64,000 bases of DNA from Halomonas rhizosphaerae (lineage in GTDB: Bacteria > Pseudomonadota > Gammaproteobacteria > Pseudomonadales > Halomonadaceae). How positions within the stretch are numbered: the stretch's first letter is position 1; every line of letters begins with the position of its first letter. Location of the stretch: the NCBI RefSeq assembly GCF_030010555.1, contig NZ_JASCQP010000007.1, forward strand, positions 1 through 64,000, in the 5' to 3' direction. The notes below the pieces were generated by a model. It saw nothing but the letters and a program-made list of their open reading frames with translations, ran no database searches and had not been told where the DNA came from. Position numbers and translations under genes: made by a program. Shown piece after piece: positions 3,346 to 20,031 of this stretch.

Positions 3346-3365
3346 GGTCAACACTCCAGACGGGC

Positions 3366-4415
3366 TTATTCCTGCACCACACGGGACTCGATGCTGTCGG
3401 CGTCGGCCGCTTCGGCAAGCCGGTCACGGAAGAACGCCAGCGCCTCCCTGGCGTCCAGGTCGCCGTTGCTGACCTTGTCCGCCCACTGGTCGATCAGGTC
3501 ATCGCTGACCTCCTGAAGCATGGCGATGTCCTCTTCGGAAGCCTCGGTGAAGGTGTTGCCGAGTTCCTTGGCAAATTCGACGCCACGCTGATCCGAGACA
3601 TCCATCATGTAGCCGAACAGGCGCGACAGCGACTCGCCCGATACGGCCTCGATGGCCTCGCGATCCTCGGCGGAGACTCGGTCCCAGACCATCGGGCTCA
3701 TGATGATGGCGAAGCTGCCACGATAGAAGCCGCCATCGACCTGCAGGGTGTTGGGCAGCACCTCTGCCACGCGGAAGCTGCGCAGACCTTCCAGGGTCAG
3801 CATGGCACCATCGATGACCCCCTGAGAGGCCGCCTCATAGACCCCGGTGGGCGGCAGAGCGACGCCGGTCACGCCCATGGCATCCGCCAGGTCGCTCATC
3901 ACTCCGCCACCCGTCCGCAGGCGCTTGCCTTCCAGCTCGTCGAAGGTCTCCACCTTGTCGGCGGTATAGATCTGCCCCGGGCCGTGTACCCCTACGGCCA
4001 TGACCTCCAGGCCGCGATGCTCGTTGCCCTGGGCAAGATGCGCCTCGAAGGTTTCCCAGTATGCGGAGGAGGCAACCTCGGAAGAGAAGTCCTCGAAGGT
4101 AGGGAATTCCGGCAGCTTGGTCAGCTCGAAACGGCCCGGCATGTGGCCATGGAAGATCCAGCTGGCGTCGGCGACGCCATCGGCCACCAGGGCCATCTGG
4201 GCCGCCGGCGGACCCAGGTCCTCGGTGACCTGAAGCGTCACGCGCCCCTCGGTGGCTTCCTCGATCCAGGCCTTCCAGGTCGGCCAGACGATGGTGTTGA
4301 TGCCGTGGTTCGGACCACCCCAGCTACTGACATTGATGGTGGTCTGGGCAAGAGCCGTGGAGCTCAGAATAGCTGCCGCCAGGGTCCCCAAGATCAGTCC
4401 GGTCGCTTTCTTCAT
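3366..4415 (-). CDS. dctP: TRAP transporter periplasmic solute-binding protein, DctP family
   Basis: This 349-residue secreted receptor captures a carboxylate in the periplasm for DctQM. The signal peptide is clear: MKKATG, then a hydrophobic stretch ending STALAQ. The mature part begins TTINVSSWGGPNHG and contains DctP hallmarks such as GKRLRTGGG and QGVIDGAMLTLEGL. The start is set by GGAGGAG just upstream; an in-frame ATG at 4436 adds seven residues before the signal peptide and is less likely. It is first in the leftward unit. A close paralogue is encoded alone at 15697-16752. A palindrome at 4559-4574 lies at the probable promoter. Confidence 0.92.
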   Translation of the reverse strand: MKKATGLILGTLAAAILSSTALAQTTINVSSWGGPNHGINTIVWPTWKAWIEEATEGRVTLQVTEDLGPPAAQMALVADGVADASWIFHGHMPGRFELTKLPEFPTFEDFSSEVASSAYWETFEAHLAQGNEHRGLEVMAVGVHGPGQIYTADKVETFDELEGKRLRTGGGVMSDLADAMGVTGVALPPTGVYEAASQGVIDGAMLTLEGLRSFRVAEVLPNTLQVDGGFYRGSFAIIMSPMVWDRVSAEDREAIEAVSGESLSRLFGYMMDVSDQRGVEFAKELGNTFTEASEEDIAMLQEVSDDLIDQWADKVSNGDLDAREALAFFRDRLAEAADADSIESRVVQE

Positions 4416-4558
4416 CTTGTACTCCTCCGTCGTCACGGGAAAGGCGGCCAGGTCACCGCCGGTTGTTGTAAGGATCTTCTTCTATCGGGCAGAGGCAGGA
4501 AACGCTGCCAGTTGCACGGGGAACGATGTTCCTCTGGGCGACACCTTGCCCGCTGCTT

Positions 4559-4785: not shown

Positions 4786-5754
4786 ATGAGCAAGAAGTTC
4801 GCGTCCCACGCCGATACCGAAGAGAAGCAGATCAGCTTCGACAAACTGGCCGAGGGCCTCTACGCCTATACCGCCGAAGGCGATCCCAACACCGGCATCG
4901 TCATCGGCGACGAGAGCGTGATGGTCATCGATACCCAGGCCACCCCGATCATGGCCCAGGACGTAATTCGCCGGATCCGCGAGATCACCGACAAGCCGAT
5001 CAAGCACGTGGTACTGACCCACTACCACGCCGTGCGCGTGCTGGGTGCTTCCGCCTACGAGGCCGAGAACATCATCGCCAGCCAGCACACCTTTGATCTG
5101 ATCGTGGAACGCGGCCAGCAGGACTATGAGTCCGAGGTCGGCCGCTTCCCGCGCCTGTTCAAGGGCGTCGACTCCGTGCCCGGCCTGACTTGGCCGAACA
5201 TCGTCTTCCAGGAGGAGCTGACGGTGTACATGGGCAAGCGCGAGGTGCGCATCATCCACCTGGGCCGCGGCCACACCAAGGGCGACACCATCGTCTGGCT
5301 CCCCGAGGAGAAGGTGATGTTCTCCGGCGACCTGGTCGAGTTCGGGGCTACCCCCTACACCGGCGACGCCTATCACGAATACTGGCCCGCCACCCTGGAC
5401 CGCCTGCAGGCCATGGCCCCCGAGAAGCTGGTGCCGGGACGCGGCGAGGCGCTGCAGACACCCGAGCAGTGCGAGGAGGCGATCCAGGGTACCCGCGATT
5501 TCCTCGCCGACATGTACGAGAGCGTCAAGGCGGGCAAGGCCGCCGGCAAGTCGCTGTCCGAGTGTTACGCCGAGACCTACGCCCTGCTCAAGCCGAAGTA
5601 CGGCCACTGGGTGATCTTCGACCACTGTGTGCCCTTCGACATCACGCGCTGCTATGACGAGGCGGGTGGCGAGTACCCGGATCCGCGCATCTGGACCGCC
5701 GAGCGTGACAACGACATGTGGCACTCGCTGCAGGACGTCGTCGAGAACCAGTAA
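4786..5754 (+). CDS. Metallo-beta-lactamase-fold protein lacking second-metal-site ligands
   Basis: A 322-residue MBL-fold protein, first gene of the homogentisate operon. The usual HxHxDH motif reads H79-Y-H81-A-V83-R84, so the Asp and third His are replaced. H163 (GRGHTKGD) and D182 (FSGDLV) are kept, but the last ligand, normally PGHG, is PGRG with R219. The first-site ligands therefore survive while Asp120, His121 and His263 equivalents of the second site are all lost. It is probably a hydrolase-like enzyme with one metal or none, or has another role in the pathway. There is no signal peptide, so it is cytoplasmic. The substrate is unknown. Confidence 0.85.
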   Translation: MSKKFASHADTEEKQISFDKLAEGLYAYTAEGDPNTGIVIGDESVMVIDTQATPIMAQDVIRRIREITDKPIKHVVLTHYHAVRVLGASAYEAENIIASQHTFDLIVERGQQDYESEVGRFPRLFKGVDSVPGLTWPNIVFQEELTVYMGKREVRIIHLGRGHTKGDTIVWLPEEKVMFSGDLVEFGATPYTGDAYHEYWPATLDRLQAMAPEKLVPGRGEALQTPEQCEEAIQGTRDFLADMYESVKAGKAAGKSLSECYAETYALLKPKYGHWVIFDHCVPFDITRCYDEAGGEYPDPRIWTAERDNDMWHSLQDVVENQ

Positions 5755-5824: not shown

Positions 5825-7549
5825 ATGCCCAAGACCTACAAGAATCCCGTCTATCCCTATCGACGCCCGTCCGAACTGGACCTCAGCGAGACACGCCACT
5901 GCCCGGTGGTGATCGTCGGGGCGGGCCCCTCGGGGCTGACCGCCGCCATCGACCTGGCCCTGCAGGGCATCGACAGCATCGTGCTCGACGACAACAACAC
6001 CGTGAGCGTCGGCTCGCGGGCGATCTGCTTCGCCAAGCGCACCCTGGAGATCATGGATCGGCTGGGCGCCGCCCAGCCCATGCTCGACAAGGGCGTGACC
6101 TGGCAGCATGGTCGCGTCTTCTTCCAGGATCGCGAGGTCTACGACTTCAACCTGCTGCCCGAGGAGGGCCACCGCGTGCCGGCCTTCATCAACCTGCAGC
6201 AGTACTACCTGGAAGAGTATCTGGTCGATCGCGCCCAGGCGCTGGACGCGCACATCGACCTGCGCTGGCTGAGCCGGGTCACCGCGGTGGACAGCCAGCC
6301 GGAGCATAGCGTGGTGACGATCGCCACCCGGGACGGTGACTACCGGCTCAGCTGCGACTACCTGCTGGTGGCCGACGGCGCCAACAGCAAGATCCGCGAC
6401 ATGCTGGGCCTGGAGTGCAAGGGCCAGATCTTCCAGGACCGCTTCCTGATCGCCGACGTGGTGATGAAGGCCGACTTCCCCACCGAGCGCTGGTTCTGGT
6501 TCGACCCGCCCTTCCACCCCGGCCAGTCGGTGCTGCTGCACAAGCAGCCGGACAACGTCTGGCGCATCGACTTCCAGCTCGGCTGGGACGCCGACCCGGA
6601 AGAGGAGAAGAAGGAGGAGAACATCCGCCCCCGCGTGCAGGCCATGCTCGGTGAGGAAGTGGAGTTCGAGCTGGAATGGGCCAGCGTCTATACCTTCCGC
6701 TGCCGCAAGATGGACAACTTCATCCACCAGCGGGTGTTCTTCATGGGCGATGCCGCCCACCAGGTCTCACCCTTCGGGGCCCGCGGCGCCAACGGGGGGG
6801 CCCAGGGCATCGACAACCTGGCCTGGAAGCTGGCCCGGGTGATCAAGGGCCAGGCCCCCGCGGCCCTGCTCGAGACCTACGACACCGAACGCCAGCACGG
6901 GGCAGAGGAGAATATCCTCAACTCCACCCGTGCCACCGATTTCATCACGCCCAAGAGCCGCGTCAGCCGGCTGTTCCGCGACACCACCCTGGAACTGGCG
7001 GAGCAGTATCCCTTTGCCCGCAGCCTGGTCAACAGCGGTCGGCTGTCGAAGCCCTGCCGCTACGAGGACTCGCCGCTCAATGGCCCCGATGCCGAGGGGA
7101 TGCCGGCCGAGCTGCGCCCCGGGAGCCCGGCCAAGGATGCCCCCATCCGCCTGGGCGATCAGCGTGCCTGGCTACTCAACCAGATCGGCAACCGCTTCGT
7201 GCTGCTGATCGATGGCCGCCTGGGGACGGCGACGGCCGAGGATCTGAAGCATCGCCTGGACGAGCTGCTGCAGGCGCGGCCCGACCTCGACCTGCTGGTG
7301 CTGGGGCCCGCCTCCCATGCCCTGGCGAGCCTGCCACGCATCACCCTGATCGAGGATGCCGAGGGCCTGGTGGCCGAGCGCTACGGCCTGACCCCCGGCG
7401 CCGGCTACCTGTTCCGCCCCGACCAGCACGTGACGGCCCGCTGGGGCGAGGTGTCGGTCGAGGCGGTCGGCACAGCACTGGACCGCGCCCTGGGCATCCA
7501 CCTTACCCCTCATTCCCGAATTCAGGGAGGTCGCCATGCCACGGCTTGA
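5825..7549 (+). CDS. mhaA: FAD-dependent aromatic hydroxylase, MhaA-like
   Basis: A 574-residue single-component-type flavoprotein monooxygenase (PheA/MhpA family). The FAD-binding GAGPSG lies at residues 32-37, the DG motif at D184-G185 and the GD motif at G308-D309 in FFMGDAAHQ. A thioredoxin-like C-terminal domain follows. It overlaps a small DUF2783 gene by 14 bp and sits just upstream of hmgA. I recall the Pseudomonas putida 3-hydroxyphenylacetate 6-hydroxylase, made of flavoprotein MhaA and small coupling protein MhaB, having this arrangement and producing homogentisate. Assignment to that reaction rests on context and size rather than alignment; a different phenolic substrate is possible. 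Confidence 0.8.
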   Translation: MPKTYKNPVYPYRRPSELDLSETRHCPVVIVGAGPSGLTAAIDLALQGIDSIVLDDNNTVSVGSRAICFAKRTLEIMDRLGAAQPMLDKGVTWQHGRVFFQDREVYDFNLLPEEGHRVPAFINLQQYYLEEYLVDRAQALDAHIDLRWLSRVTAVDSQPEHSVVTIATRDGDYRLSCDYLLVADGANSKIRDMLGLECKGQIFQDRFLIADVVMKADFPTERWFWFDPPFHPGQSVLLHKQPDNVWRIDFQLGWDADPEEEKKEENIRPRVQAMLGEEVEFELEWASVYTFRCRKMDNFIHQRVFFMGDAAHQVSPFGARGANGGAQGIDNLAWKLARVIKGQAPAALLETYDTERQHGAEENILNSTRATDFITPKSRVSRLFRDTTLELAEQYPFARSLVNSGRLSKPCRYEDSPLNGPDAEGMPAELRPGSPAKDAPIRLGDQRAWLLNQIGNRFVLLIDGRLGTATAEDLKHRLDELLQARPDLDLLVLGPASHALASLPRITLIEDAEGLVAERYGLTPGAGYLFRPDQHVTARWGEVSVEAVGTALDRALGIHLTPHSRIQGGRHATA

Positions 7550-7775
7550 ACTGACCCCGAACTTCACCGATCCGGACGCCTTCTACGCGGCGCTGACCGA
7601 GGTGCACCGCGAGCGCAGCGAGGAGGCGAGCGAACGCATCAACGCCCGGCTGATCCTGCTGCTGGCCAATCATGTCGGTGACCAGCGGGTACTCGAGGAG
7701 GCCCTGGCCATCGCCGGCCAGGCCGTGGAGCCGGCACCGGCTCAAGGCTCGTCCGCCCAACAAGAACAGCGCTGA
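7536..7775 (+). CDS. mhaB: DUF2783 small protein, probable hydroxylase coupling partner (MhaB-like)
   Basis: A 79-residue acidic, helical protein (start [10 protein letters not shown]) of the DUF2783 type, preceded by a strong AGGGAGGT ribosome site and overlapping the hydroxylase by 14 bp. No catalytic motif is visible. Overlap with a flavoprotein hydroxylase is the main clue that it is the coupling partner. The same pairing occurs independently at 12217-14111, which strengthens the link. The Gln/Ala/Pro-rich tail (from about residue 67) looks unstructured. Confidence 0.7.
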
Positions 7776-7789
7776 ACGAGGATAATTCC

Positions 7790-9100
7790 ATGACCACCGA
7801 TACGCTTCAGTACCAGAGCGGCTTTCGCAACCACTTCGCCACCGAGGCCCTGCCCGGTGCCCTTCCCGAGGGGCAGAACTCGCCCCAGCGTTGCGCCTAC
7901 GGCCTCTATGCGGAGCAGTACACCGGCTCGGCCTTCACCGCCCCGCGCCACCAGAACCTGCGCAGCTGGCTCTACCGCATCCGTCCCTCGGTGCTGCAGA
8001 GCGCCTACCAGCCGTTGCCCGACAGGCCCGTGGCCACCTCTCCGCTGGCCCGGCCTGCCGCCGACCCGAACCAGATGCGCTGGGACCCGGTACCGGTGCC
8101 CGGCGAGCCCACCGACTTCGTCGATGGCCTGCTGACCATCGCCGTCAACGGGGATGCCGGGGCCCAGAGCGGCGTTGGCGTACATGTCTACGCCTTCAAC
8201 CGCGACATGACCGGGCGCTTCTTCTACGATGCCGACGGCGAGCTGCTGATCGTGCCGCAGCTCGGCACCCTGCGCCTGCGCACCGAGATGGGCGAGCTCG
8301 ACGTCGCCAGCGGCGAGATCGCCGTGATCCCGCGCGGCATCAAGTTCCAGGTCCGCCTGGGTGACGGCGCCGATGCCGCCCGGGGGTATGTCTGCGAGAA
8401 CTACGGCAGCCCGCTGGAGCTCCCCGGCCTGGGACCCATCGGTGCCAACGGCCTGGCCAACCCGCGCGACTTCCTGAGCCCGGTGGCCGCCTACGAGGAC
8501 CTCGAGGGTGAGTTCTCGCTGGTCGCCAAGTTCTCGGGCCGCTTCTGGGAGACACGGCTCGGGCACTCGCCGCTCGACGTCGTGGCCTGGCACGGCAACG
8601 TTGCGCCATACAAGTACGACCTGGCCCACTTCAACACCATCAACACCGTGAGCTTCGACCACCCCGATCCGTCGATCTTCACCGTGCTGACCTCGGCCTC
8701 CGACACCCCCGGAATGGCCAACCTCGACTTCGTGATCTTCCCGCCGCGCTGGATGGTGGCCGAGAACACCTTCCGCCCGCCCTACTTCCATCGCAACCTG
8801 ATGAGCGAGTTCATGGGCCTGATCCACGGCGAGTACGATGCCAAGGCCGAGGGCTTCCTGCCGGGTGGCGCCAGCCTGCACAACTGCATGTCGCCCCATG
8901 GGCCGGATGCCGAGACCTTCGAGAAGGCCAGCGAAGCCGAGCTGACGCCGCAGTACCAGGGCGATACCCTGGCCTTCATGTTCGAGAGCCGTTACGTCTA
9001 CCATCCGACCGAGGCGGCGCTGGAGGCCGATTTCCGCCAGCGCGACTACGTGGACGTCTGGTCCACCCTGCGCTCGCACTTCGACCCGCGCCAACCCTGA
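7790..9100 (+). CDS. hmgA: Homogentisate 1,2-dioxygenase
   Basis: A 436-residue iron(II) enzyme that opens the ring of homogentisate to maleylacetoacetate, with a cupin-like fold. The N-terminus [19 protein letters not shown] is diagnostic. Iron ligands can be assigned as H334 (YFHRN), E340 (SEFMG) and H370 (MSPHG), and the catalytic His as H291 (FDHPDPS), each one residue off the human numbering. Length is normal. It follows mhaB by 14 bp and precedes the two remaining pathway genes, so the central pathway is complete in one operon. Confidence 0.98.
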
Positions 9101-9169
9101 ACCACCGACGCCACGAATCGACCGGCCGGGGCCGACTGCCCCGCCCCTGACGACAAGGACCGAGACAAG

Positions 9170-10189
9170 ATGAAGCTCGCCACCCTCAAGAACGGCCGCG
9201 ACGGCGAACTGGTCGTCGTCTCCCGCGACCTGACCCGCGCCGTTCGCGCCGCGGACATTGCGCCCACCCTGCAGCAGGCCACCGAGAACTGGGACGCCGT
9301 CAGCCCGACGCTCGAGTCCCGCTACGCCGAACTCAACGCGGGCAAGGCCGAAGGCGCCTTCGACCTCGACCAGAGCGCCCTGCACTCGCCGCTGCCGCGC
9401 ACCTACCACTGGGCCGACGGCTCCGCCTACCTCAACCACGTCCAGCTGGTGCGCCAGGCGCGCAACGCCGAGATGCCCGAGACCTTCTGGACCGACCCGC
9501 TGATGTACCAGGGCGGCGGCGACAAGTTCCTGGCACCTACCGAGGACATCGAGGCGATCAGCGAGGAGCACGGCATCGACTTCGAGGGCGAGATCGCCGT
9601 GATCACCGACGACGTGCCCATGGCGGTGACGCCCGAGCAGGCGGCAGCGCACATCAAGCTGGTGATGCTGGTCAATGACGTCAGCCTGCGCGGCCTGATC
9701 CCGGGCGAGCTGGCCAAGGGCTTCGGCTTCTTCCAGGCCAAGCCGGCCTCCGCCTTCTCGCCCATCGCGGTGACGCCGGACGAGCTGGGCGACGCCTGGC
9801 GGGACGGCCGCGTCCACCTGCCGCTGACCGTGCACCTCAACGGCGAGAAGTTCGGCGAGCCGCAAGCCGGGCCGGACATGATCTTCAACTTCCCGCAGCT
9901 GGTGGCCCATGCGGCCAGGACCCGCTACCTGGGCGCCGGCGCCATCGTCGGTTCCGGCACCGTCTCCAACCCGGACCCCGACGGCGGCCCCGGAAAGCCG
10001 GTGGCCGACGGCGGCGTGGGCTACAGCTGCCTGGCCGAGGTGCGCATGGTGGAGAAGATCCAGCACGGCGACAGCAAGACGCCGTTCATGCGCTTCGGCG
10101 ACCGGGTACGCATCGAGATGTTCGACCGGGAAGGCAAGAGCATCTTCGGCGCTATCGACCAGCAGGTCGTCAAGTACCAGCCCAGGTAA
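9170..10189 (+). CDS. hmgB: Fumarylacetoacetase (fumarylacetoacetate hydrolase family)
   Basis: This 339-residue hydrolase performs the last step, splitting fumarylacetoacetate into fumarate and acetoacetate. It shows the FAH-family acidic metal site (DFEGEIAVI, about residue 140), then NDVSLRGLIPGE and GSGTVSNPDP. It belongs to the short bacterial form rather than the longer animal-type enzyme. The start MKLATLKNG is preceded by an AAGGA ribosome site. It lies between hmgA and maiA in the same direction, the usual catabolic order. Confidence 0.93.
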   Translation: MKLATLKNGRDGELVVVSRDLTRAVRAADIAPTLQQATENWDAVSPTLESRYAELNAGKAEGAFDLDQSALHSPLPRTYHWADGSAYLNHVQLVRQARNAEMPETFWTDPLMYQGGGDKFLAPTEDIEAISEEHGIDFEGEIAVITDDVPMAVTPEQAAAHIKLVMLVNDVSLRGLIPGELAKGFGFFQAKPASAFSPIAVTPDELGDAWRDGRVHLPLTVHLNGEKFGEPQAGPDMIFNFPQLVAHAARTRYLGAGAIVGSGTVSNPDPDGGPGKPVADGGVGYSCLAEVRMVEKIQHGDSKTPFMRFGDRVRIEMFDREGKSIFGAIDQQVVKYQPR

Positions 10190-10199
10190 GGGAGGCTCC

Positions 10200-10844
10200 A
10201 TGACGACGCTGTACGGCTACTTCCGCTCGTCGGCCGCCTACCGGGTGCGCATCGCCCTGAACCTCAAGGGCCTGGCCTATGACCAGGTCCCGGTCAACCT
10301 GGTGAAGGGCGAGCAGCGCACTGAGGCGAACGTCGCGCGTCATCCCCAGGGCCTGGTACCGACGCTGGAGACCGATGACGGGGTCCAGCTGATCCAGTCG
10401 CTGGCGATCTGCGAGTTTCTGGACGAGGTGCACCCCGAACCGCCCCTGCTGCCGGCCGATGCCGAGGGGCGAGCTCGGGTGCGTGCACTGGCCCAGCTGG
10501 TGGCCTGCGAGATCCATCCCCTCAATAACTTGCGGGTGCTCAAATACCTGGTGGGCGAGCTCGGGGTGGGCGAGGAGGCCAAGCTGGCCTGGTACCGCCA
10601 CTGGATCGCCGAGGGGTTCGACGCCCTGGAGGGGATGCTCTCTCGCGAGGCCGGCACCGGTGACTTCTGCCATGGCGACACCCCGACCCTGGCCGATCTC
10701 TGCCTGGTGCCTCAGGTCTTCAACGCCGAGCGCTTCGCGTGCGACCTCTCGGCCTACCCGACGATCCAGCGCATCACCGCCAACTGTCGGGCGCTGCCTG
10801 CCTTCCGTCAGGCCGCACCGGAGGCGCAGCCGGACGCTCGCTGA
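10200..10844 (+). CDS. maiA: Maleylacetoacetate isomerase (zeta-class GST)
   Basis: A 214-residue glutathione transferase of the zeta class that isomerises maleylacetoacetate to fumarylacetoacetate using glutathione. The N-terminal SSAAYRVRIALNLK contains the SSxxxRVRIAL signature with the glutathione-activating Ser. HPLNNLRVL in the helical domain is also family-typical. The ATG at 10200 has GGGAGG upstream, 10 bp after the fumarylacetoacetase stop; the frame is open further upstream but overlaps that gene. A strong terminator follows at 10866. Confidence 0.95.
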   Translation: MTTLYGYFRSSAAYRVRIALNLKGLAYDQVPVNLVKGEQRTEANVARHPQGLVPTLETDDGVQLIQSLAICEFLDEVHPEPPLLPADAEGRARVRALAQLVACEIHPLNNLRVLKYLVGELGVGEEAKLAWYRHWIAEGFDALEGMLSREAGTGDFCHGDTPTLADLCLVPQVFNAERFACDLSAYPTIQRITANCRALPAFRQAAPEAQPDAR

Positions 10845-12216: not shown

Positions 12217-12417
12217 TCATGAACTGATGCTGGCGCCCTCCCGGGCCTCGTCGATGGCGGCCATCACCCGCTCGACCTCGGGCACGCGGTGGGCCAGGGC
12301 CAGCGCCAGCTGGGCAAGAAAGTGGCTCTCCTGCGCCTCGGGCAGGGCGTCGAGGGTCTCGGCCAGGTGCTCGTAGACCCGCTCCAGGTCGGCAAAGGGC
12401 AGTGTCGCATCGGTCAT
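12217..12417 (-). CDS. DUF2783 small protein, second hydroxylase partner
   Basis: A 66-residue protein whose start overlaps the stop of the upstream flavoprotein hydroxylase by four bases (ATGA). Its helical, acidic sequence, with ESHFLAQLALALAHRV at its centre, aligns by eye with the DUF2783 protein at 7536 around [10 protein letters not shown]. No catalytic residues are evident. The repeated coupling to a hydroxylase gene suggests a structural or coupling subunit. It is the last gene of a two-gene leftward unit. Confidence 0.65.
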   Translation of the reverse strand: MTDATLPFADLERVYEHLAETLDALPEAQESHFLAQLALALAHRVPEVERVMAAIDEAREGASISS

Positions 12418-14111
12418 GATGTTTCTCCTTCCAGGGCCCGACCTTGGGCAAGGTTCAGGGCGGCCTCGAGGGCGGCGGGCTCGAAAGACTTCCAGCGGGC
12501 CGCCACGTGGCGGTCGGGGCGCGCCAGGTAGGCCGCGCCCGGCGCGGCACCATAGCCGGTGAAAAGGCTGCCGTCGGGGTCGACCAGGGCGTCCTCGGCG
12601 CCCGGCGACCGGGCCACGCGCAGCAGGGTGAGATCGATACCCTTGGCCTGAAGCGCCGCGAGTCTCTGCTGCAGGGGCGGCTCGACCTCGCCTGCCTCGC
12701 TGAAGTGCATCAGGGTGAAGCCCGTGCCGAGGTGGTCGAGCAGGAAGTCGTCATCCCCCAGACGGCGATTGATCAGGGGCGCGCCGGGAATCGGCCCGGC
12801 CTCGAAGGCGGCACCGTCGGCCAGGGTCAGCGGGCTGTCGGCATAGGTGTAGGGGGTGACCTGACGCGGGTTGGCGAAGCCACTGGCGTAATCATTATGG
12901 AACGCCAGGGCCAGGGCGGCATCGCGCATCAGCGCATGGCCCCGGGTCGGCGGGGTCATGAAGCGCGTGCTCTTGCCGGCGTTGGCGAAGACATCCAGGG
13001 TGGCGCCACGGCGCTCCGGGCTGTAGCTGTCGAGCAGCCCGTCTGTGCCCTGGCCCTTGAGCACGCAGGCCAGCTTCCAGCCGGCATTGGCGGCATCGGC
13101 CAGGCCGTTGTTGAGGCCCCGCACACCGAAGATCGGCACCAGGTGGGCACTGTCGCCGATGAACAGCACGCGCCCGTGGCGATAGTCGTCCAGCGCCAGG
13201 GTATGCGCCTTGTAGAGGCTCCACCACTCCAGCTCCCAGTCGCCGCTCTCCTGCATCACCTCGCGTACGATCAGCTCGACCTTCTCGCGGATCCGCTCCT
13301 CCAGAACCGCCTCTTCCGGGTCTTCCCCTGGCGCCAGCTGATAGTCGATGCGCCAGATGTCATCGGGCTGCTTGTGCACCAGGATGGTGGTATCGGGCAG
13401 CGCATGGGAGTGGAAGAAGGCGCGGCGCTCGGTGGGAAAGTCGGACCTGAGGCGCACGTCGGCGATCACGTAGCGCCCCTCATAGGCCTCGCCATGCAAC
13501 GAGAGGTCGAAGGCCTTACGCACCACGCTGCGCGCGCCGTCGGCGGCCAGCAGGTAGTCGCACTGCAGCCGGTAGTCACCTTCGGGGGTGGTCACCTGCA
13601 GGGTGACGCCGGCATCGGCCTGACTCACACCGGTCACGGCACTCTGCCAACGCATCTCGATCAGGTCACTGGCTTGAGCCTTGTCGATCAGGAACTGCTC
13701 GATGTACTGCTGCTGCAGATTGACCATCGGGTAGTAGCGCTCCTGGTCGGAGTGCGGCATCTGGAAGCGGTAGATCTCGCGGTCGCGGAAATAGGTGCGG
13801 CCCTGGGTCCAGCCCAGCCCCTTCTCCTCGAAGGGCGCAGCGATGCCGAGTTGCTGGAGGATCTCGAAGCTGTGGCGTGAGAGGCAGATCGCCCGCGAGC
13901 CGTCGTTGACGGTGTCCTTGTCGTCCAGCACCACCGAGGCGATGCCGTGGCGGGCCAGCTCCAGGGCAGCGGTCACCCCCACCGGCCCGGCACCGACGAT
14001 GGCCACGCGGTGACGAACCGCCTGGCCATCCAGCTCGGGAGGACGAACGAAGGGAAAATGCGGATAATCGAAGTAGAGCGAGTCGGTCTCGGCGCGTCCG
14101 GCGGGTCGCAT
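12414..14111 (-). CDS. FAD-dependent aromatic hydroxylase, second copy
   Basis: A 565-residue paralogue of the 5825 hydroxylase with the same layout: GAGPVGVTAALELARHG near residue 40, the DG motif in AADGARSVVRKAF, the GD motif in FIGDSAHLVPIFGVRGLNNG, and a C-terminal thioredoxin-like domain. It keeps the shared FAD-clamp SRAICL. The ATG at 14111 follows AGGAGG; a GTG six bases upstream lies in that ribosome site. Its partner DUF2783 gene overlaps it. It probably hydroxylates a related phenolic acid. Which substrate each copy takes cannot be read from sequence. Confidence 0.85.
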   Translation of the reverse strand: MRPAGRAETDSLYFDYPHFPFVRPPELDGQAVRHRVAIVGAGPVGVTAALELARHGIASVVLDDKDTVNDGSRAICLSRHSFEILQQLGIAAPFEEKGLGWTQGRTYFRDREIYRFQMPHSDQERYYPMVNLQQQYIEQFLIDKAQASDLIEMRWQSAVTGVSQADAGVTLQVTTPEGDYRLQCDYLLAADGARSVVRKAFDLSLHGEAYEGRYVIADVRLRSDFPTERRAFFHSHALPDTTILVHKQPDDIWRIDYQLAPGEDPEEAVLEERIREKVELIVREVMQESGDWELEWWSLYKAHTLALDDYRHGRVLFIGDSAHLVPIFGVRGLNNGLADAANAGWKLACVLKGQGTDGLLDSYSPERRGATLDVFANAGKSTRFMTPPTRGHALMRDAALALAFHNDYASGFANPRQVTPYTYADSPLTLADGAAFEAGPIPGAPLINRRLGDDDFLLDHLGTGFTLMHFSEAGEVEPPLQQRLAALQAKGIDLTLLRVARSPGAEDALVDPDGSLFTGYGAAPGAAYLARPDRHVAARWKSFEPAALEAALNLAQGRALEGETS

Positions 14112-14189
14112 GGGCACCTCCTGCCAGGAGTTCAGGTTGTGGTCTGACGTGCGGGCAGGTTATCCCGGTGCCGCGCCGCTCCCTGTCCC

Positions 14190-15026
14190 GTGAAAGCGGG
14201 GACAGACGACACACTCCCTACGACGATGGTAGCAACCCTGATGGCGACAGGATTCCCGAGGAAGGCCCCCCCGGACTGGCCGGGGCTGCTGGCCACCCTG
14301 GCCGAGTGCGTCACGCACCTGGGCACGGAATGCTTCGACGGCCAGCTGATCGCCCTGCTGCGTCAGGGGGTGGGCATCGAGCAGTGCATTCTCTTCGCCT
14401 ACTCGGGACGCGACACCATGGAGTCTCTGCTGGTGGACAACCCGCGCTACCCCAAGGTGGCCGGACGCCTGGCCGACCTCTACGCCGGCGGGCTGTTCCG
14501 CCAGGACCCCAACTATCCCCGGCTGCGACAGCTGCTCGAGGCAGGCAGGGAGCAGGCAGACGCCGAACTGATGCCTATGCCGACCGAGGCGATGTCGCCG
14601 GCCTACCGCAGCCACCTGTTCGCCTTTCCCGACCTGGCCGACAAGGTCTCGGTGGTGATTCCCGCCGGCGCAACCGTCTACTACCTGAACCTCTACCGTG
14701 ACCTCGGGCGCGGCCCCTTCGCTCCCCTGGACATGGCGCGGCTGGAGGCCCTGATCCCGCTGCTGGCCAGCCTGGTATGCCGCCATTATCGCCAGGCACA
14801 CCCGGCCGCCCTGCCCGCCAGTCACGAGGAAGCCGAGGCCCTCAAGCCGCTCTCCGCGCGGGAACGCCAGCTCTGCCTCTCGCTGCTGCGCGGCCACACC
14901 CTCAAGACCGCCGCCGCCGAGCTCGACATCGCCCTCTCCACCGCCGAGACCTACCGCAAGCGTGCGTACGCCAAGCTTGGCGTGCGCTCCAAGGCACGGC
15001 TGGTGGCGCTGTGCCGGAAAGGCTGA
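14190..15026 (+). CDS. LuxR-type HTH transcriptional regulator
   Basis: A 278-residue protein with an uncharacterised N-terminal sensor region and a C-terminal LuxR/GerE helix-turn-helix (about residues 215-275): LSARERQLCLSLLRG, then AAAELDIALSTAETYRKRAY and AKLGVRSKARL. There is no receiver-domain signature and no clear acyl-homoserine-lactone pocket motif. It is divergent from the second hydroxylase and likely controls it. The start is uncertain: GTG at 14190, ATG at 14226 or ATG at 14241. An imperfect inverted repeat (TGTCCCG/CGGGGACA) lies at about 14183-14206. Confidence 0.8.
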   Translation: MKAGTDDTLPTTMVATLMATGFPRKAPPDWPGLLATLAECVTHLGTECFDGQLIALLRQGVGIEQCILFAYSGRDTMESLLVDNPRYPKVAGRLADLYAGGLFRQDPNYPRLRQLLEAGREQADAELMPMPTEAMSPAYRSHLFAFPDLADKVSVVIPAGATVYYLNLYRDLGRGPFAPLDMARLEALIPLLASLVCRHYRQAHPAALPASHEEAEALKPLSARERQLCLSLLRGHTLKTAAAELDIALSTAETYRKRAYAKLGVRSKARLVALCRKG

Positions 15027-15088: not shown

Positions 15089-15520
15089 TCAGCCAGCGGC
15101 GAGGCTGTCGAACGCCCTGGCGTTGGGGCAGAAGCCGCGACACTCCTCGACCTCGGCACCGGCGCGCATGGCCTTCCAGCAATGGCCGACGACCGGGCAG
15201 CCATTGCAGGTCTTGCGCATCGCGTTGTATCCCGGCTCCGCCGCCACCTCGGCATCCTGCAGGCCGAAGCGCTGCATCATCACCGGCATCAGGGTCCTGG
15301 CCGGGACGAAGTCACTCGGCTGCCCCGCCGCCAGCTGTCGCGCCATCTCGCGTTCGAAGCCAGGCTCGAGGGGGCTCTCCAGGTCATTCAGAAGGGCATG
15401 ATAGGTAGGGCCCGCGTCGTGCTGGACGTCACGCACCAGCTGGGCCGTGGACGTGGCATAGCAGCGTTCGGTCAGGCGCTCCCACCAGGAGGCGGTGCGG
15501 GTGGTCTGTGCAGTGGCCAT
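15089..15520 (-). CDS. DUF6455-like cysteine-rich protein
   Basis: A 143-residue soluble protein whose C-terminal half carries five cysteines in the order C-x2-C-x5-C, then C-x3-C within CRGFCPNARAF. This spacing suggests a metal or Fe-S site and resembles the DUF6455 family as I know it; no enzymatic role is established. An operator-like palindrome lies at its promoter (15603-15618), matching those of the homogentisate operon, so it is probably co-regulated. It might be a redox helper for the P450 or hydroxylases, which is speculation. Confidence 0.65.
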   Translation of the reverse strand: MATAQTTRTASWWERLTERCYATSTAQLVRDVQHDAGPTYHALLNDLESPLEPGFEREMARQLAAGQPSDFVPARTLMPVMMQRFGLQDAEVAAEPGYNAMRKTCNGCPVVGHCWKAMRAGAEVEECRGFCPNARAFDSLAAG

Positions 15521-15696: not shown

Positions 15697-16752
15697 TCAG
15701 GCGCCCGGGTCGATCACTTCATCGGCGGAGAGGCCTTCTTCCTCGCCGACGGCATCGAGCTGTTCGAGGAAGTAGCCGCGGGCGGCTTCGCCATCCACCC
15801 CCTGGGCGCCGGCCGTTTCGAACCAGGCACCCGGCAGTTCTGTGGCCATCTGCTGGAAGCGCTCGACCTCCTCGTCCGGCAGTTCGATGAAGGTGTTGCC
15901 CTGTTGCTCGGCGAATTCGATGCCGCGCACGTCCACGACATCCATCATGTAGCCGAACAGCCGGGAGAGGCGCTCACCCGAGACCTCCTCGATCGCTGCT
16001 CGGTCCTCGTCGGAGAGCGACGCCCAGGTATCCGGGTTGATGACCAGGGAGAAGCTGCCGCGATAGAAGCCGCCTGGCATCTGCACCGTGTAGGGCAACA
16101 CCTCGGCCAGGCGGAAGCTCTTGAGGCCCTCGAGGGTGAGCATGGCGCCGTCGATCACGCCCTGCGTCGCGGCCTCGTAGGTGCTGGCCGGCGGCAGGGC
16201 GACACCGGTCAGCTCCAGTGCGTTGGAGATGTCGGCCATGATCCCGCCGCCGATGCGCACGCGCTTGCCGTCCAGGTCATCGAGGCTGTCGATCGATTCA
16301 TCGAGGAACAGCGACCCGGGGCCGTGCACGCCCAGACCGATGACCTCGACGCCGCGGTGCTCGCCGGCCTGGGCCAGGTATTCATTGTGGGTGCGCCAGT
16401 AGGCTACCGAGGCCGCTTCGGAGGAGAAGTCCTCGAAGGTGGGCAGCTCGGGCAGCTTGGTCAGTTCGAAGCGCCCGGGCATCAGGCCATGGAAGAGCCA
16501 GGTGACGTCGGCCACGCCGTCCGCGATCAACTCCATCTGGGCGTCGGGCGGGCCCATGTCGTGGACCACGTTGACGGTGACCCGCCCCTCGGTCGCCTCC
16601 TCCACCCAGCTGGCCCAGGTCGGCCAGACGATGGTGTTGACGCCGTGGTTGGGGCCCGCCCAGGTGCTGACCTGCAGCTCGGTGGCCGCAGCGCTCTGGA
16701 AGGCGCCAAGGGAAAGGGCGGTGAGTGTCGTCAGTGTCGCCAGTTTCTTCAT
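15697..16752 (-). CDS. Orphan TRAP solute-binding protein, DctP family
   Basis: A 351-residue secreted receptor with a signal peptide (MKKLATLTTLTALSLGAF, ending at about AAA). It is a close paralogue of the 3366 DctP. Both share GPNHG, NTIVWPTW, EEATEGRV, MPGRFELTKLPE and MDVxDxRG. No permease genes accompany it, so it may feed a second ligand into the DctQM pair at 1514-3345. It lies 71 bp after the P450 gene in the same direction, with an 18-bp palindrome between them, and may be co-transcribed with it. The tail beyond about residue 310 differs from its paralogue. Confidence 0.88.
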   Translation of the reverse strand: MKKLATLTTLTALSLGAFQSAAATELQVSTWAGPNHGVNTIVWPTWASWVEEATEGRVTVNVVHDMGPPDAQMELIADGVADVTWLFHGLMPGRFELTKLPELPTFEDFSSEAASVAYWRTHNEYLAQAGEHRGVEVIGLGVHGPGSLFLDESIDSLDDLDGKRVRIGGGIMADISNALELTGVALPPASTYEAATQGVIDGAMLTLEGLKSFRLAEVLPYTVQMPGGFYRGSFSLVINPDTWASLSDEDRAAIEEVSGERLSRLFGYMMDVVDVRGIEFAEQQGNTFIELPDEEVERFQQMATELPGAWFETAGAQGVDGEAARGYFLEQLDAVGEEEGLSADEVIDPGA

Positions 16753-16805
16753 TGTCGGTTTCCTTGGTTGTTATTGATGTCAGGGTTGGCGTGCGCAACA
16801 GGCTG

Positions 16806-16823
16806 TCCTGATGATCATCAGGA
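16806..16823. promoter_or_regulatory. Perfect 18-bp palindrome between the P450 gene and dctP paralogue
   Basis: TCCTGATGATCATCAGGA is fully self-complementary and ends one base from the P450 stop codon, 54 bp upstream of the dctP start. There is no T-run, so it is unlikely to be a plain terminator. It could be an operator for the dctP paralogue or a processing hairpin. Confidence 0.4.
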
Positions 16824-19163
16824 TCATAGCGAGAGCACCAGACGCTTGCCCTTGGCGCGCGAACAGCAGGCCATCATCCGGTCGTTGGCATCGCGCTCGG
16901 CGCGGCTGAGCACCAGGTCGCGGTGATCGATGTCGCCCTCGGCCACCGCCACCTCGCAGGTACCACACAGGCCCTCACAGCAGTCGCTGGGCACATCCAC
17001 ACCGGCCGCCGTCAGTGCCTCGAGCAGGGTCTGGTCGTTGCTGACCCGTACCGTCAGGTCGGAGTCGGCGAGTCGTGCGTCGAAGGCATGTTCGTGCTCG
17101 GGATCGAGGATGCTGGAGCGGGCCGTGAAATGCTCGACATGCAGCGTGCCCTCGGGCCAGTCCACCGCCAGCGCCTCGAGCGCCTCCAGCATGCGCTCCG
17201 GGCCGCAGGCGTAGACCTGCTCGCCCTCGGATAGGCCGGCGAGCCCTCGCGGCAGGTCGAGGCGGCAGCCCTCGTCGCCGGCATGGAGGGTCAGCGCTGC
17301 CTCATGGTCACGTTCGACCCGGTCGAGAAAGGCCATGGTTCGCCGCCCGGCGCCGCAGTAGTGGAACGCATAGGGCTTGCCGAGCGCCTTGAGCCGATCG
17401 GCCATGGCCAGGATCGGCGTGATGCCGATACCGCCGGCAATCAGGGTATAGCGCGGCACGGCCTCGTCCAGAGGGAAGTGGTTCTTGGGACCGGCGATAT
17501 GCAGCACGTCACCCGGCTCGAGGGTGTCGTGGAAATGCACCGAGCCCCCTCGCCCCTCGGGCTCGCGCAGGATGGCGATGGACAGGCGGCTGCGGTCACC
17601 GCACGTCCCGCACAGCGAGTAGCAGCGGCGCCATTCGCCCGACACCAGCTCGATATGGGAACCGGGGGACCAGTCGGGCAGCTCACGCCCATGGGGATCG
17701 ACCAGGTCGACACGGATCACCGCCTCGGCCTCGCGCTCCACCTCGCTGACGACGACCCGGCGCAGGATGTCATCCTTGACCGGTGCCCCGATGCGGAAAT
17801 GCGTGGGGTTTTCCAGCACCGAGGGAGTGCGCCGTTCGGGATTCTGCGCGGGATCCCATTCCACCCATAGCGACGTGGCGCCACGAAACGAGATATTGGG
17901 CAGGTACTCGAACGCCTGGTCCTCGACCAGCTGCATATGCGGCAGACGACGGACGAATTCATCGAGGATGACCCGCATTTCCATCCGGGCGATGTTCTTG
18001 CCCATGCACTGGTGCGCACCATAGCCGAAGGTGAGGTGCTCGGCCGCGTTGTGGCGGTAGATGTCGAACGCCTCGGGATTCTCCCAGTGGCGACGATCCT
18101 GGTTGGCCGACGCCTGCACGATCAGCAGTCTGCCGCCCTTCGGAATCTTCTCCCCACCGACTTCGGTGTCGTCGGTGGCGATGCGACGCCAGGCCACGAC
18201 CGACCCGGCGACGCGCAGGCACTCCTCGATCGCGCTGGGAATCAGGGCAGGGTTCTCGCAGATGTCGTTCCAGGACTCGCGGTGCGACAGCAGGGTACGA
18301 AAGGCGTTGGTGGTGGCGAAAGCGGTGGTCTCATGGGCGGCCACCAGGATCGCCATCATCATCGAGCGCAGATAGCTCTCCGGGACGATGTCAGGATGCT
18401 CAGCGTGCATCCGGATCGAGTCATACATCCAGCCCTCGCCGGTCGGCTCGGCCAGCATGCGATCGAGGATCGCCTGTGCCGACTGCCAGAAGCGGCCGAC
18501 GTCCTCGGCAATCTGCAATTGCTGTGCCGGGGAGGGGCGGCCCCAGGTATTGAGCGTGTGGGCGACCGAGAAGCGGCGAAGCTCCTGGGCATCCTCCTCG
18601 GGCACCCCCAGGAAGCGCAGTGCCACGGTCATGGGAATCTCTCGGAACATCTCGGCCACCAGATCGACGTGCCCCTTGTCGATAAAGCGGTCCATGTAGT
18701 CGCGCACCAACTCGCGCACCCATGCCTCGTGCTTCTCGAGGTGCTCGGGCAGGAAGGCCTCCATCAGCAGTCGGCGGCGTTCCATGTGGTCCGGCTCGTC
18801 CTCGTTGACCATGGTGCGGCGCATCGCATAGCCGTGACTCTCGAGGATCTTCATCGCCTCGGGAGGCGCCGGGGTGAGCTTTTCCAGGGCGATCGAGGGC
18901 GAGAAGAGGAGGTTGTCGCGGAACACCGCCTTCACGTCCTCATAGCGGCTCACGACCCAATAACCGAGCCTCGGGCTGTAGAACACCGGCTGCTGCTCGC
19001 GCGCCCAGCGCAGCGCCTCGGCAGGGTCGAGCTGATAGGGCGCATCGAAAGGATCGAAGGCGGCGGCCTCGGGCGATACCGGGCAGCCGGTGGGCGATAC
19101 GGCGGCCTGGTGGAAGGGGCAGCCGGCCACGCCGGTTTCGGTCCGGTGGATTGCTGATGTCAT
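16824..19163 (-). CDS. Self-sufficient cytochrome P450 (CYP116B-type: P450, FMN reductase and 2Fe-2S domains)
   Basis: A 779-residue fusion that carries its own redox partners. The P450 domain has the oxygen-binding AHETT (276-280), ExxR (E314, R317) and heme-ligand loop FGYGAHQCMG with C386. A phthalate-dioxygenase-reductase-like part follows, with RCYS for flavin (513-516) and AGGIGITP (576-583). A plant-type ferredoxin ends it, with C728-x4-C733-x2-C736 and C766. Order and length match the CYP116B class. The ATG at 19163 has GGGAGG upstream; an ATG at 19205 lacks one. Context suggests hydroxylation, epoxidation or O-demethylation of an aromatic precursor feeding homogentisate, but the substrate is unknown. 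Confidence 0.9.
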   Translation of the reverse strand: MTSAIHRTETGVAGCPFHQAAVSPTGCPVSPEAAAFDPFDAPYQLDPAEALRWAREQQPVFYSPRLGYWVVSRYEDVKAVFRDNLLFSPSIALEKLTPAPPEAMKILESHGYAMRRTMVNEDEPDHMERRRLLMEAFLPEHLEKHEAWVRELVRDYMDRFIDKGHVDLVAEMFREIPMTVALRFLGVPEEDAQELRRFSVAHTLNTWGRPSPAQQLQIAEDVGRFWQSAQAILDRMLAEPTGEGWMYDSIRMHAEHPDIVPESYLRSMMMAILVAAHETTAFATTNAFRTLLSHRESWNDICENPALIPSAIEECLRVAGSVVAWRRIATDDTEVGGEKIPKGGRLLIVQASANQDRRHWENPEAFDIYRHNAAEHLTFGYGAHQCMGKNIARMEMRVILDEFVRRLPHMQLVEDQAFEYLPNISFRGATSLWVEWDPAQNPERRTPSVLENPTHFRIGAPVKDDILRRVVVSEVEREAEAVIRVDLVDPHGRELPDWSPGSHIELVSGEWRRCYSLCGTCGDRSRLSIAILREPEGRGGSVHFHDTLEPGDVLHIAGPKNHFPLDEAVPRYTLIAGGIGITPILAMADRLKALGKPYAFHYCGAGRRTMAFLDRVERDHEAALTLHAGDEGCRLDLPRGLAGLSEGEQVYACGPERMLEALEALAVDWPEGTLHVEHFTARSSILDPEHEHAFDARLADSDLTVRVSNDQTLLEALTAAGVDVPSDCCEGLCGTCEVAVAEGDIDHRDLVLSRAERDANDRMMACCSRAKGKRLVLSL

Positions 19164-19353
19164 GGGGCCTCCCGCGGGACTGTCGCCCGGCATCGTAGCG
19201 GTCATGAGTCGCGGATCTATTGTTACTTTTATCGCACAGGATGTATCGTTTATCGAACTTATGGCTGAACATAGGCAGTTCCGATGGGGACGTCAATCCC
19301 CGGGCGACTGCACTTTCTTGCCCCGCCACCCCCGACTCGAGGAATGTCGTTCG

Positions 19354-20031
19354 ATGGCCACCACCCTGCAAACCCTGGATCGCGGCCTGCGCGCGCTCGA
19401 AATCGTCGCCGAGCATGCCGAGGGCGTCACCATCGCCGAACTCGCCGAGCAACTGGCGGTGCACCGCGCCATCGCCTATCGCATCGTCACCACCCTCGAG
19501 GGGCATGGGCTGATCACGCGGACCCGTGAGGGCCCGGTGCGCCTGGGGGCGGGCATCTCGCTGCTGGCCTCGCGCTTCGAGCCCCAGCTGCGCGGCGTGG
19601 CACAGCCCCTGCTGCAAAGGCTGGCGAGGGCCACCCGGGCCACGGCCTTCATCTCGGTCGCCCAGGGCGATGAGTGCGTGGTGATCATGGAAGCCGAGCC
19701 CGAGGAGGGGCTGCTGCGGGTCGGTTACCGGGTGGGCAGCCGCCACCCGCTGACACGAGGGGCGGCCGGCATCGCCATCCTGGCCGCTCGTCCCCCGCAG
19801 CCAGACGATGACGAGGCCGTACGCCAGGCGCGAACCGAGGGCTTCAGCCTGACCCGCGGTCAGCTGCAGCGCGGGGCCGTCGGCGTGGCCAGTGCCATCG
19901 CCTCGCCGCAGGTCCGGCCCGGCGTGGAGGCCTGTGTCGGCGTAGTCGCCATGGATGATCTGGACACCGACACGGCCATCCGCGAGGTGATGGACCATGC
20001 CGGCCAGCTCGCCGACCTGATCGGCCAGTAG
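19354..20031 (+). CDS. IclR-family transcriptional regulator
   Basis: A 225-residue regulator with an N-terminal winged helix (LDRGLRALEIVAEHAEGVTI, then LAEQLAVHRAIAYRIVTTLE) and a C-terminal IclR effector domain (RGAAGIAILAA, then ACVGVVAMDD). IclR proteins commonly control aromatic-acid genes, and the hmg regulator of P. putida belongs to this family. It is divergent from the P450 gene across 190 bp and may regulate that gene, itself or the wider locus. The domain is slightly short for IclR (usually about 250). The ATG at 19354 follows GAGGA; the open frame upstream crosses the intergenic region. Confidence 0.85.
   Translation: MATTLQTLDRGLRALEIVAEHAEGVTIAELAEQLAVHRAIAYRIVTTLEGHGLITRTREGPVRLGAGISLLASRFEPQLRGVAQPLLQRLARATRATAFISVAQGDECVVIMEAEPEEGLLRVGYRVGSRHPLTRGAAGIAILAARPPQPDDDEAVRQARTEGFSLTRGQLQRGAVGVASAIASPQVRPGVEACVGVVAMDDLDTDTAIREVMDHAGQLADLIGQ

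Follow-up and report, generated by a model that had tools for sequence, protein, structure and literature searches.

A CYP116B cytochrome P450 operon of Halomonas rhizosphaerae, a probable unit for the uptake and oxidation of 2-hydroxyphenylacetate

The present analysis concerns a self-sufficient cytochrome P450 gene of the CYP116B type and the genes that surround it in Halomonas rhizosphaerae. The window, i.e., the whole stretch of DNA that was analyzed (positions 1 to 64,000 of contig NZ_JASCQP010000007.1), is the start of a 199-kb contig from a genome of 4.07 Mb (46 contigs, 99.99% complete). The P450 gene (16824-19163, − strand) is followed by a gene encoding a solute receptor of the DctP family of tripartite ATP-independent periplasmic (TRAP) transporters (15697-16752, − strand) and is divergent from a gene encoding an IclR-family regulator (19354-20031, + strand), and the same locus carries a complete homogentisate pathway. 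Quite probably, this operon constitutes an uptake-and-oxidation unit for 2-hydroxyphenylacetate (2-HPA) that works like the ohpRTA system of Cupriavidus; we infer its substrate, the ligand of its receptor, the sharing of a permease and its regulation from sequence comparisons and by analogy, whereas the identities of the genes, the conserved order IclR-P450-DctP, the phylogeny and fold group of the receptor, the co-occurrence with hmgA and the mosaic structure of the P450 gene come directly from the sequences.

In the mechanism that we propose, the periplasmic DctP protein would take up 2-HPA and deliver it to a TRAP permease, the most likely candidate being the DctQM pair, whose genes stand about 12 kb from the operon in this locus. 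The cytoplasmic P450 would use NAD(P)H, flavin mononucleotide (FMN), a 2Fe-2S cluster and heme to hydroxylate 2-HPA at C5, giving homogentisate in a single step, and HmgA, HmgC and HmgB would convert homogentisate into fumarate and acetoacetate. Control of the P450 operon would fall to the divergent IclR protein, probably via a conserved element located at 19223-19259, and the MhaAB-like flavoprotein pair encoded beside hmgA would provide a parallel entry for 3-hydroxyphenylacetate (3-HPA).

The CYP116B enzyme and its probable substrate

The longest open reading frame (ORF) of the P450 gene extends from 16824 to 19205 (− strand, 793 aa), and translation from the ATG at 19163 gives 779 aa. This ATG is very probably the true start, because the codons upstream of it contain stops in the two nearest relatives (genomes G072 and G055); moreover, GGGAGG is found four bases 5′ of it. 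The coordinate 19163 used in an earlier note on this DNA is therefore better than the ORF end. The P450 genes of G072 and G055 were not retained as pseudogenes, since their in-frame stops sit upstream of the true start methionine.

In a Pfam scan of the protein, p450 and Fer2 were above their cut-off and NAD_binding_1 was just below its threshold; among the 25 best NCBIfam matches listed, none reached its own cut-off. Using phmmer, the protein matched two solved full-length self-sufficient P450s, 6kbh (1026 bits) and 6laa (899 bits), and the alignments cover residues 23/24-793, i.e., the heme domain, the FMN reductase and the C-terminal 2Fe-2S domain in one chain. The translation includes the motifs FGYGAHQCMG, ECLR and CCEGLCGTC...CC, aligned with those of the solved relatives. 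ExxR and the 2Fe-2S cysteine motif are hallmarks of P450s and ferredoxins, respectively. The heme motif is the same as that given in PMC8449657. Judged by its sequence, the enzyme is thus a CYP116B protein with heme, reductase and 2Fe-2S parts, and the P450-reductase-ferredoxin fusion described in the earlier note stands. It is the sole CYP116B-type P450 found in its genome, where the six other matches correspond to the reductase or ferredoxin part.

The earlier note took the natural substrates of CYP116B enzymes to be mostly unknown. This premise is dated because activity on 2-HPA has been published: OhpA was shown to have it by both genetic and biochemical work, and there is support for it in CYP116B234 and CYP116B305, which convert 2-HPA to homogentisate (PMC8449657, PMC11889516, PMC12126322). 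According to the available text of PMC8449657, OhpA, the CYP116B enzyme of Cupriavidus pinatubonensis JMP134, is a 2-HPA 5-hydroxylase that makes homogentisate directly. An ohpA mutant lost growth on 2-HPA but kept growth on 3-HPA and 4-hydroxyphenylacetate (4-HPA), Pseudomonas putida KT2440 gained growth on 2-HPA from ohpA, and growth on 2-HPA matched the presence of ohpA in the strains tested (PMC8449657). NADH oxidation by OhpA reached 952 U/g with 2-HPA versus 44 with 3-HPA and 31 with 4-HPA (PMC8449657). The ohpA gene belongs to an operon with ohpT, encoding a Bug-type receptor, and adjoins ohpR, encoding an IclR regulator; the same source mentions some Actinobacteria, one alphaproteobacterium and two gammaproteobacteria in which a CYP116B gene is close to hmgA (PMC8449657).

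The operon of the window has in common with ohpRTA a CYP116B P450, a neighboring divergent IclR gene, a single adjacent solute receptor and a homogentisate pathway in the genome. However, the receptor gene of Cupriavidus is of the Bug type, which belongs to tripartite tricarboxylate transporters (TTT), and lies upstream of the P450 gene, whereas that of the window encodes a TRAP DctP and lies downstream. The comparison relied on the locus of Cupriavidus metallidurans CH34 (L157), which comprises IclR, Bug-type receptor and P450 genes, named here from the description of JMP134 and from sequence reading. The CH34 P450 is 80% identical to OhpA (PMC8449657) and 58% identical to that of the window; the CH34 Bug protein has no match in the window at an E-value of 1e-8, and the two IclR proteins are only distantly related. 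Unlike in Cupriavidus, a complete hmgABC set is present in the same locus. Another Halomonas CYP116B enzyme, P450-Hal1 (CYP116B62) from Halomonas sp. NCIMB 172, has been described for its expression and substrate scope, in the text available to us.

Eleven pocket positions out of a full list of 18, taken from PMC11889516 and PMC12126322, were checked after mapping onto the window P450 via its alignment with 6laa; numbering follows the 793-aa ORF. 6laa has the residues given for CYP116B46 in these sources (P320, V321, F206 and A205). The residues of the window enzyme are A106, M132, V133, T220, W221, I286, A289, S335, V336, W339 and F440. All five CYP116B234 positions (Ala84, Thr198, Trp199, Ser313 and Val314) match (A106, T220, W221, S335 and V336), and OhpA is reported to have the same pocket as CYP116B234 (PMC11889516). 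Nine of the 11 positions are identical in the CH34 enzyme, which served as comparator.

A survey of 275 genomes of Halomonadaceae (species representatives) identified 46 genomes with this P450 and 229 without it. All 46 carry hmgA, including G069 in which it is a fragment at a contig end, compared to 74 of the 229 others (Fisher p 7e-20, a value inflated by relatedness). In these 46 genomes, hmgA is found on the same contig within 25 kb of the P450 gene in 24 cases and within 70 kb in 29, lies more than 200 kb away in four and is on another contig in 13.

Loci were compared for 37 of these 46 genomes besides the window itself (eight remaining loci were left out), and neighborhoods were counted in 35, L041 and L048 having short flanks. 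In all 35, a divergent IclR gene and a dctP gene directly downstream accompany the P450 gene; DctM follows DctP in three loci, all from genus g14, and is absent in 32. Outside the family, 70 named loci drawn from the best 80 of 145 were considered, leaving out ten that duplicate family loci (L077-L086), and 51 had sufficient flanks. Of these 51, 41 have an IclR gene at a distance of 5 kb or less, 14 have DctP and DctM genes downstream and 12 have a Bug receptor gene. Only L155 has TRAP genes upstream of the P450 gene, and it has a DctP downstream too. Two Marinobacter loci (L143 and L147) carry hmgCBA, IclR, P450 and DctPQM genes consecutively.

The orphan receptor and its candidate permease

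The dctP gene of the operon begins 71 bp after the stop of the P450 gene, which bears out the statement in the earlier note that the P450 lies directly upstream of a TRAP receptor. The protein matches PF03480 (E 2.8e-22). It can be called an orphan at the operon because neither DctQ nor DctM adjoins it, as the earlier note had said; a complete TRAP transporter encoded at 1514-4436 in the same locus went unmentioned there. This transporter comprises DctM (1514-2800, − strand, PF06808), the large permease that we propose as partner of the orphan receptor, the small permease DctQ (2806-3354, − strand, PF04290) and DctP (3366-4436, − strand), a paralogue of the orphan receptor according to Pfam, to its 56% identity and to the tree. 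A MarR-family regulator identified with Pfam (986-1510, − strand), found beside the TRAP genes in most hmg loci, probably belongs to this TRAP/homogentisate module. An IS3-family transposase gene (38-910, + strand), with which the contig opens, lies beside these genes.

The receptor tree (80 rows, four matches being excluded for length) gathers the 33 P450-linked orphan receptors in one clade (99/100). This clade adjoins a group holding hmg-linked and paa-linked DctPs (support 85/95, unstarred), the label hmgTRAP also taking in five rows that fall within the paa-type clade. The 18 receptors of P450-DctPQM loci form a long separate branch, and the orphan DctP is only 28-31% identical to P450-linked DctPs of Alphaproteobacteria and Marinobacter. 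For these two reasons, the idea that it is a remnant of an alphaproteobacterial P450-DctPQM operon was rejected. Orthologues of the orphan receptor (at least 75% identity) were found in 40 genomes, all of which have the P450.

The AlphaFold2 model of the receptor (pLDDT 86.8) has 4p56 as its best structural match (Z 40.5). The 15 best matches have Z scores of 34.9-40.5, and Z does not exceed 29.9 from rank 16 onward. The titles of 10 of these 15 structures name cinnamate, coumarate, caffeate, ferulate, 4-hydroxyphenylacetate or "aromatic acid ligands"; the five other titles (4p56, 5im2, 4nap, 4n6d and one open TarP) show no ligand, being truncated or naming none; for 4p56, it is probably mandelate. 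TarP receptors (7nra, 7nr2, 7nsw, 7nqg and others) have the same fold and belong to the same sequence group. Together with PF03480, phmmer and the tree, the model thus places the orphan DctP in the aromatic-acid (TarP-like) group of receptors, although sharing a fold is no proof of what is bound. According to the available text of PMC5812351, the TarPQM proteins of Rhodopseudomonas form a complete transporter, whereas the receptor of the window has no adjoining permease genes.

The DctM of the hmg locus is 91-97% conserved across the genomes that hold it in genera g1, g3 and g23, whereas the adjoining receptors differ widely; nine further genomes have a match at 69-71%. This DctM type is found in 35 of the 40 genomes with the orphan receptor compared to 35 of 235 others. 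All four g14 genomes that carry this P450 lack it, and in the three of these that were examined the P450 gene is followed by dctP and dctM genes of its own. Two other arrangements should be mentioned: two tandem dctP genes precede a single dctQM pair in G003 (L198:8534-11786), and G099 has a paa-linked DctP (L190:5799) with no DctQM found beside it and a full TRAP transporter at its hmg genes. From these sequence data, the orphan DctP probably uses the conserved DctQM of the hmg locus. In Bug/TTT systems, orphan receptors have been suggested to share a few permeases (PMC5812351 and PMC4996985, in their available text). A limited look at literature on orphan TRAP receptors, available in part, showed no DctP case of such sharing, which does not prove its absence, and no literature was found that joins hydroxyphenylacetate, a TRAP transporter and homogentisate.

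Points against and alternative readings

Several observations weigh against reading the operon as a 2-HPA unit served by the permease of the hmg locus. Two of the 11 checked pocket positions, M132 and I286, differ from the CH34 enzyme, which has L and G; these positions are variable within the family, with a possible effect on specificity, although CYP116B305, which is active on 2-HPA, carries L and I there (PMC12126322). The linkage between the P450 and hmg genes is not universal: hmgA is more than 200 kb away or on another contig in 17 of 46 genomes, and hmg genes occur within flanks of about 9 kb of the P450 in only 4 of 35 family loci and 6 of 51 others. All co-occurrence figures are inflated by the shared ancestry of the genomes. 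The IclR protein of the window is weakly related to OhpR of CH34 (28% over 144 aa, E 0.003), and this weak similarity led us to reject orthology and to consider it as an analogue of OhpR. The hmg-type DctM is missing from five of the 40 genomes with the orphan receptor (G039, G072, G082, G103 and G222); the case of G072 is explained by a contig end, since its hmg-linked dctP gene begins at base 132 of the contig and dctM would fall outside it. Furthermore, the genome of H. rhizosphaerae encodes 25 full-length DctM proteins, so the partner permease is a guess. Lastly, no gene encoding a solute-binding protein was recognized near the P450 in 25 of the 51 loci outside the family. Despite this, the variety of carriers found beside CYP116B genes, namely Bug in Cupriavidus, DctPQM in several Alphaproteobacteria and Marinobacter, a major facilitator superfamily gene in one Rhodococcus record and the orphan DctP in Halomonas, hints at a carboxylate substrate.

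The earlier note had proposed that the P450 hydroxylates an unactivated aromatic acid, for example phenylacetate, or a methoxylated acid, whose product would reach homogentisate through the flavoprotein hydroxylases, by a route independent of CoA. A CoA-independent arylacetate route into homogentisate is still the most likely, but phenylacetate or a methoxylated acid as its substrate now appears highly improbable. The two flavoprotein hydroxylases are indeed present in the locus, CYP116B enzymes are called promiscuous (PMC8449657), and PaaA was searched for in the genome of H. rhizosphaerae, as the note had suggested for the paa pathway, and not found, a result in favor of its reading. However, PaaA is encoded by 23 of the 46 genomes with the P450 (and 35 of the 229 without it), and this coexistence means that the P450 does not generally substitute for the Paa route; the idea that it replaces this pathway was rejected on the same ground. 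The affinity of CYP116B305 for phenylacetate is about 100-fold lower than that for 2-HPA, with dissociation constants of 39 and 0.4 µM (PMC12126322), and in JMP134, according to the available text, phenylacetate does not induce ohpA and hmgA is dispensable for growth on it (PMC8449657). A flavoprotein step would moreover be unnecessary, and the P450 would not feed these enzymes, since C5 hydroxylation of 2-HPA gives homogentisate itself; a methoxylated acid feeding them is not supported either. It is improbable that the enzyme naturally acts on a different ortho-hydroxylated aryl acid, e.g., 3-(2-hydroxyphenyl)propionate (melilotate), with entry into homogentisate as a secondary role. CYP116B305 binds this compound as tightly as 2-HPA (0.4 µM), but with a coupling of 15% (26% at 45 °C) compared to 82% for 2-HPA at 45 °C (PMC12126322), and hmgA, whose product acts on homogentisate, is present in all 46 genomes. 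Oxidation of alkanes or xenobiotics, as once proposed for CYP116B5 and CYP116B1, is scarcely tenable: CYP116B5 was reported to allow growth on alkanes in work cited in PMC8449657, but 2-HPA supports the growth of an Acinetobacter strain whose enzyme is 98% identical, neither of the two Cupriavidus strains uses alkanes (stated there as data not shown), and the receptor of the operon is of the aromatic-acid type.

A less probable alternative concerns the receptor. It could serve one of the other TRAP permeases of the genome, in line with its 25 full-length DctM proteins, or act as a periplasmic sensor, a sensory role of a TTT receptor being mentioned in PMC4996985. Nevertheless, the receptors nearest to it in the tree belong to hmg and paa TRAP transporters, the same DctM accompanies it in most genomes, and no sensor kinase was found among the neighboring genes scanned with Pfam and NCBIfam. 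We keep the hmg-locus DctQM as its probable permease and 2-HPA as the probable substrate of the operon.

An exchanged P450 and the surrounding genes

The window and the corresponding region of G072 share about 87% DNA identity over about 16 kb. The IclR, DctP, DUF6455-like, LuxR and second flavoprotein hydroxylase proteins are 89-95% identical between them, whereas the P450s are only 63% identical. The reverse relation holds with loci from Vreelandella and some Halomonas, whose P450s are 80-88% identical to that of the window with lower identity in the flanks. Sliding identity, a breakpoint scan and the P450 tree point to a tract exchanged by recombination at 16760-18984 (− strand), i.e., a type A P450 in a type B context. 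The scan (886 informative sites) counted 496 donor-like and 71 recipient-like sites inside this tract, compared to 50 and 150 on its left and 42 and 77 on its right; one edge coincides with the junction of the P450 and dctP genes, and the other falls between 18984 and 19044. In the tree, type A (17 rows and the window) and type B (17 rows) form separate starred groups that are not sisters, and holding the window P450 with type B was rejected by the approximately unbiased (AU) test (p-AU 1.4e-6, quick tree). By contrast, the window DctP groups with that of G072 and then with that of G055 in the receptor tree. An exchange from A into B is the parsimonious, although unproven, direction. The swap probably kept the reaction because the two types do not differ at the pocket positions that were checked, except for M/L at position 132; G072 itself has M336 and L440.

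These data can be combined in a broader proposal, for and against which we consider the balance to be even. In this halophile family, regulator and receptor would form a fixed, substrate-defining cassette in which the P450 is exchangeable. Types A and B would share the IclR-P450-DctP frame, and the lineage of the window would be a type B overwritten by type A, with edges at the P450-DctP junction and around codons 40-60. Several arylacetate receptors (the 2-HPA orphan, hmg-linked and paa-linked ones) would share one slowly evolving TRAP permease, in a modular way resembling that of Bug/TTT orphans.

The IclR-family regulator was assigned with Pfam and NCBIfam, with a start at 19354. Between its gene and the P450 gene, a 37-bp element (19223-19259, no strand assigned) that is largely conserved in the alignment of 38 loci contains TTACTTTTATCGCACA then TATCGTTTATCGAAC and constitutes a candidate operator. 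GTTCGATAAACG at 19247-19258 (− strand) is the sole match in the window to GTTCGATAAWCG with at most one mismatch (0.13 expected), and the PcaR operator is given as GTTCGATAATCGCAC (PMC12455658). The IclR protein probably acts by binding this element. On the other side of the operon, genes encoding a LuxR-type regulator (14190-15026, + strand) and a DUF6455-like cysteine-rich protein (15089-15520, − strand, below the Pfam cut-off) lie beside the P450 operon in many relatives too.

The complete homogentisate pathway announced in the earlier note is encoded at 7790-10844 (+ strand). It comprises homogentisate 1,2-dioxygenase HmgA (7790-9100; TIGR01015, 667 bits, above the cut-off), fumarylacetoacetase HmgB (9170-10189; FAH in Pfam) and maleylacetoacetate isomerase HmgC (10200-10844; Pfam, glutathione S-transferase fold). 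An HmgB homologue is encoded just upstream of the CYP116B gene in L117, L119 and L129 (one gammaproteobacterial and two Kordiimonadaceae contigs of metagenome-assembled genomes). The two flavoprotein hydroxylases mentioned in that note were also found. One, MhaA-like and putatively a 3-HPA 6-hydroxylase dependent on flavin adenine dinucleotide (FAD), is encoded at 5825-7549 (+ strand; NF006002, 812 bits). Its end is overlapped by the gene of a 79-aa DUF2783 protein (7536-7775, + strand; PF10932, E=4.4e-26), a putative MhaB-like coupling protein; we take MhaB to be a member of DUF2783. The order FAD hydroxylase, DUF2783 protein and hmgABC matches the mhaAB-hmgABC layout of Burkholderia xenovorans LB400 (PMC3053370), where a FAD hydroxylase of similar length and its small partner also lie upstream of hmgA. 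By analogy of place, partner and layout, the first FAD hydroxylase probably makes homogentisate from 3-HPA. Unlike the LB400 locus as described in the available text, that of the window has the TRAP genes and a metallo-beta-lactamase-fold gene attached. The latter (4786-5754, + strand) adjoins the MhaA-like gene and is found directly upstream of it in 16 of the 17 loci holding this gene, the exception being L208. The second FAD hydroxylase (12414-14117, − strand; NF006002, 616 bits) belongs to the same subfamily and is 42% identical to the first. A 66-aa ORF (12217-12417, − strand) overlaps its stop and perhaps encodes a second coupling protein. Tyrosine is likely another source of homogentisate in this genome, which encodes a 4-hydroxyphenylpyruvate dioxygenase above the cut-off. 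Overall, the locus looks like a hub that directs hydroxyphenylacetate isomers into homogentisate via different hydroxylases.

CYP116B enzymes of this kind and their reaction on 2-HPA were already known. What this work adds is the type of receptor, the probable use of a neighboring permease and the exchanged P450. For the CYP116B enzyme of H. rhizosphaerae, the question moves from an unidentified substrate to a specific reaction with published precedent, and many halophiles now appear likely to catabolize 2-HPA. The less expected finding in this operon is its receptor. If it is true that one TRAP permease serves several receptors, these bacteria would offer a simple route to testing modular TRAP uptake in a tractable organism.

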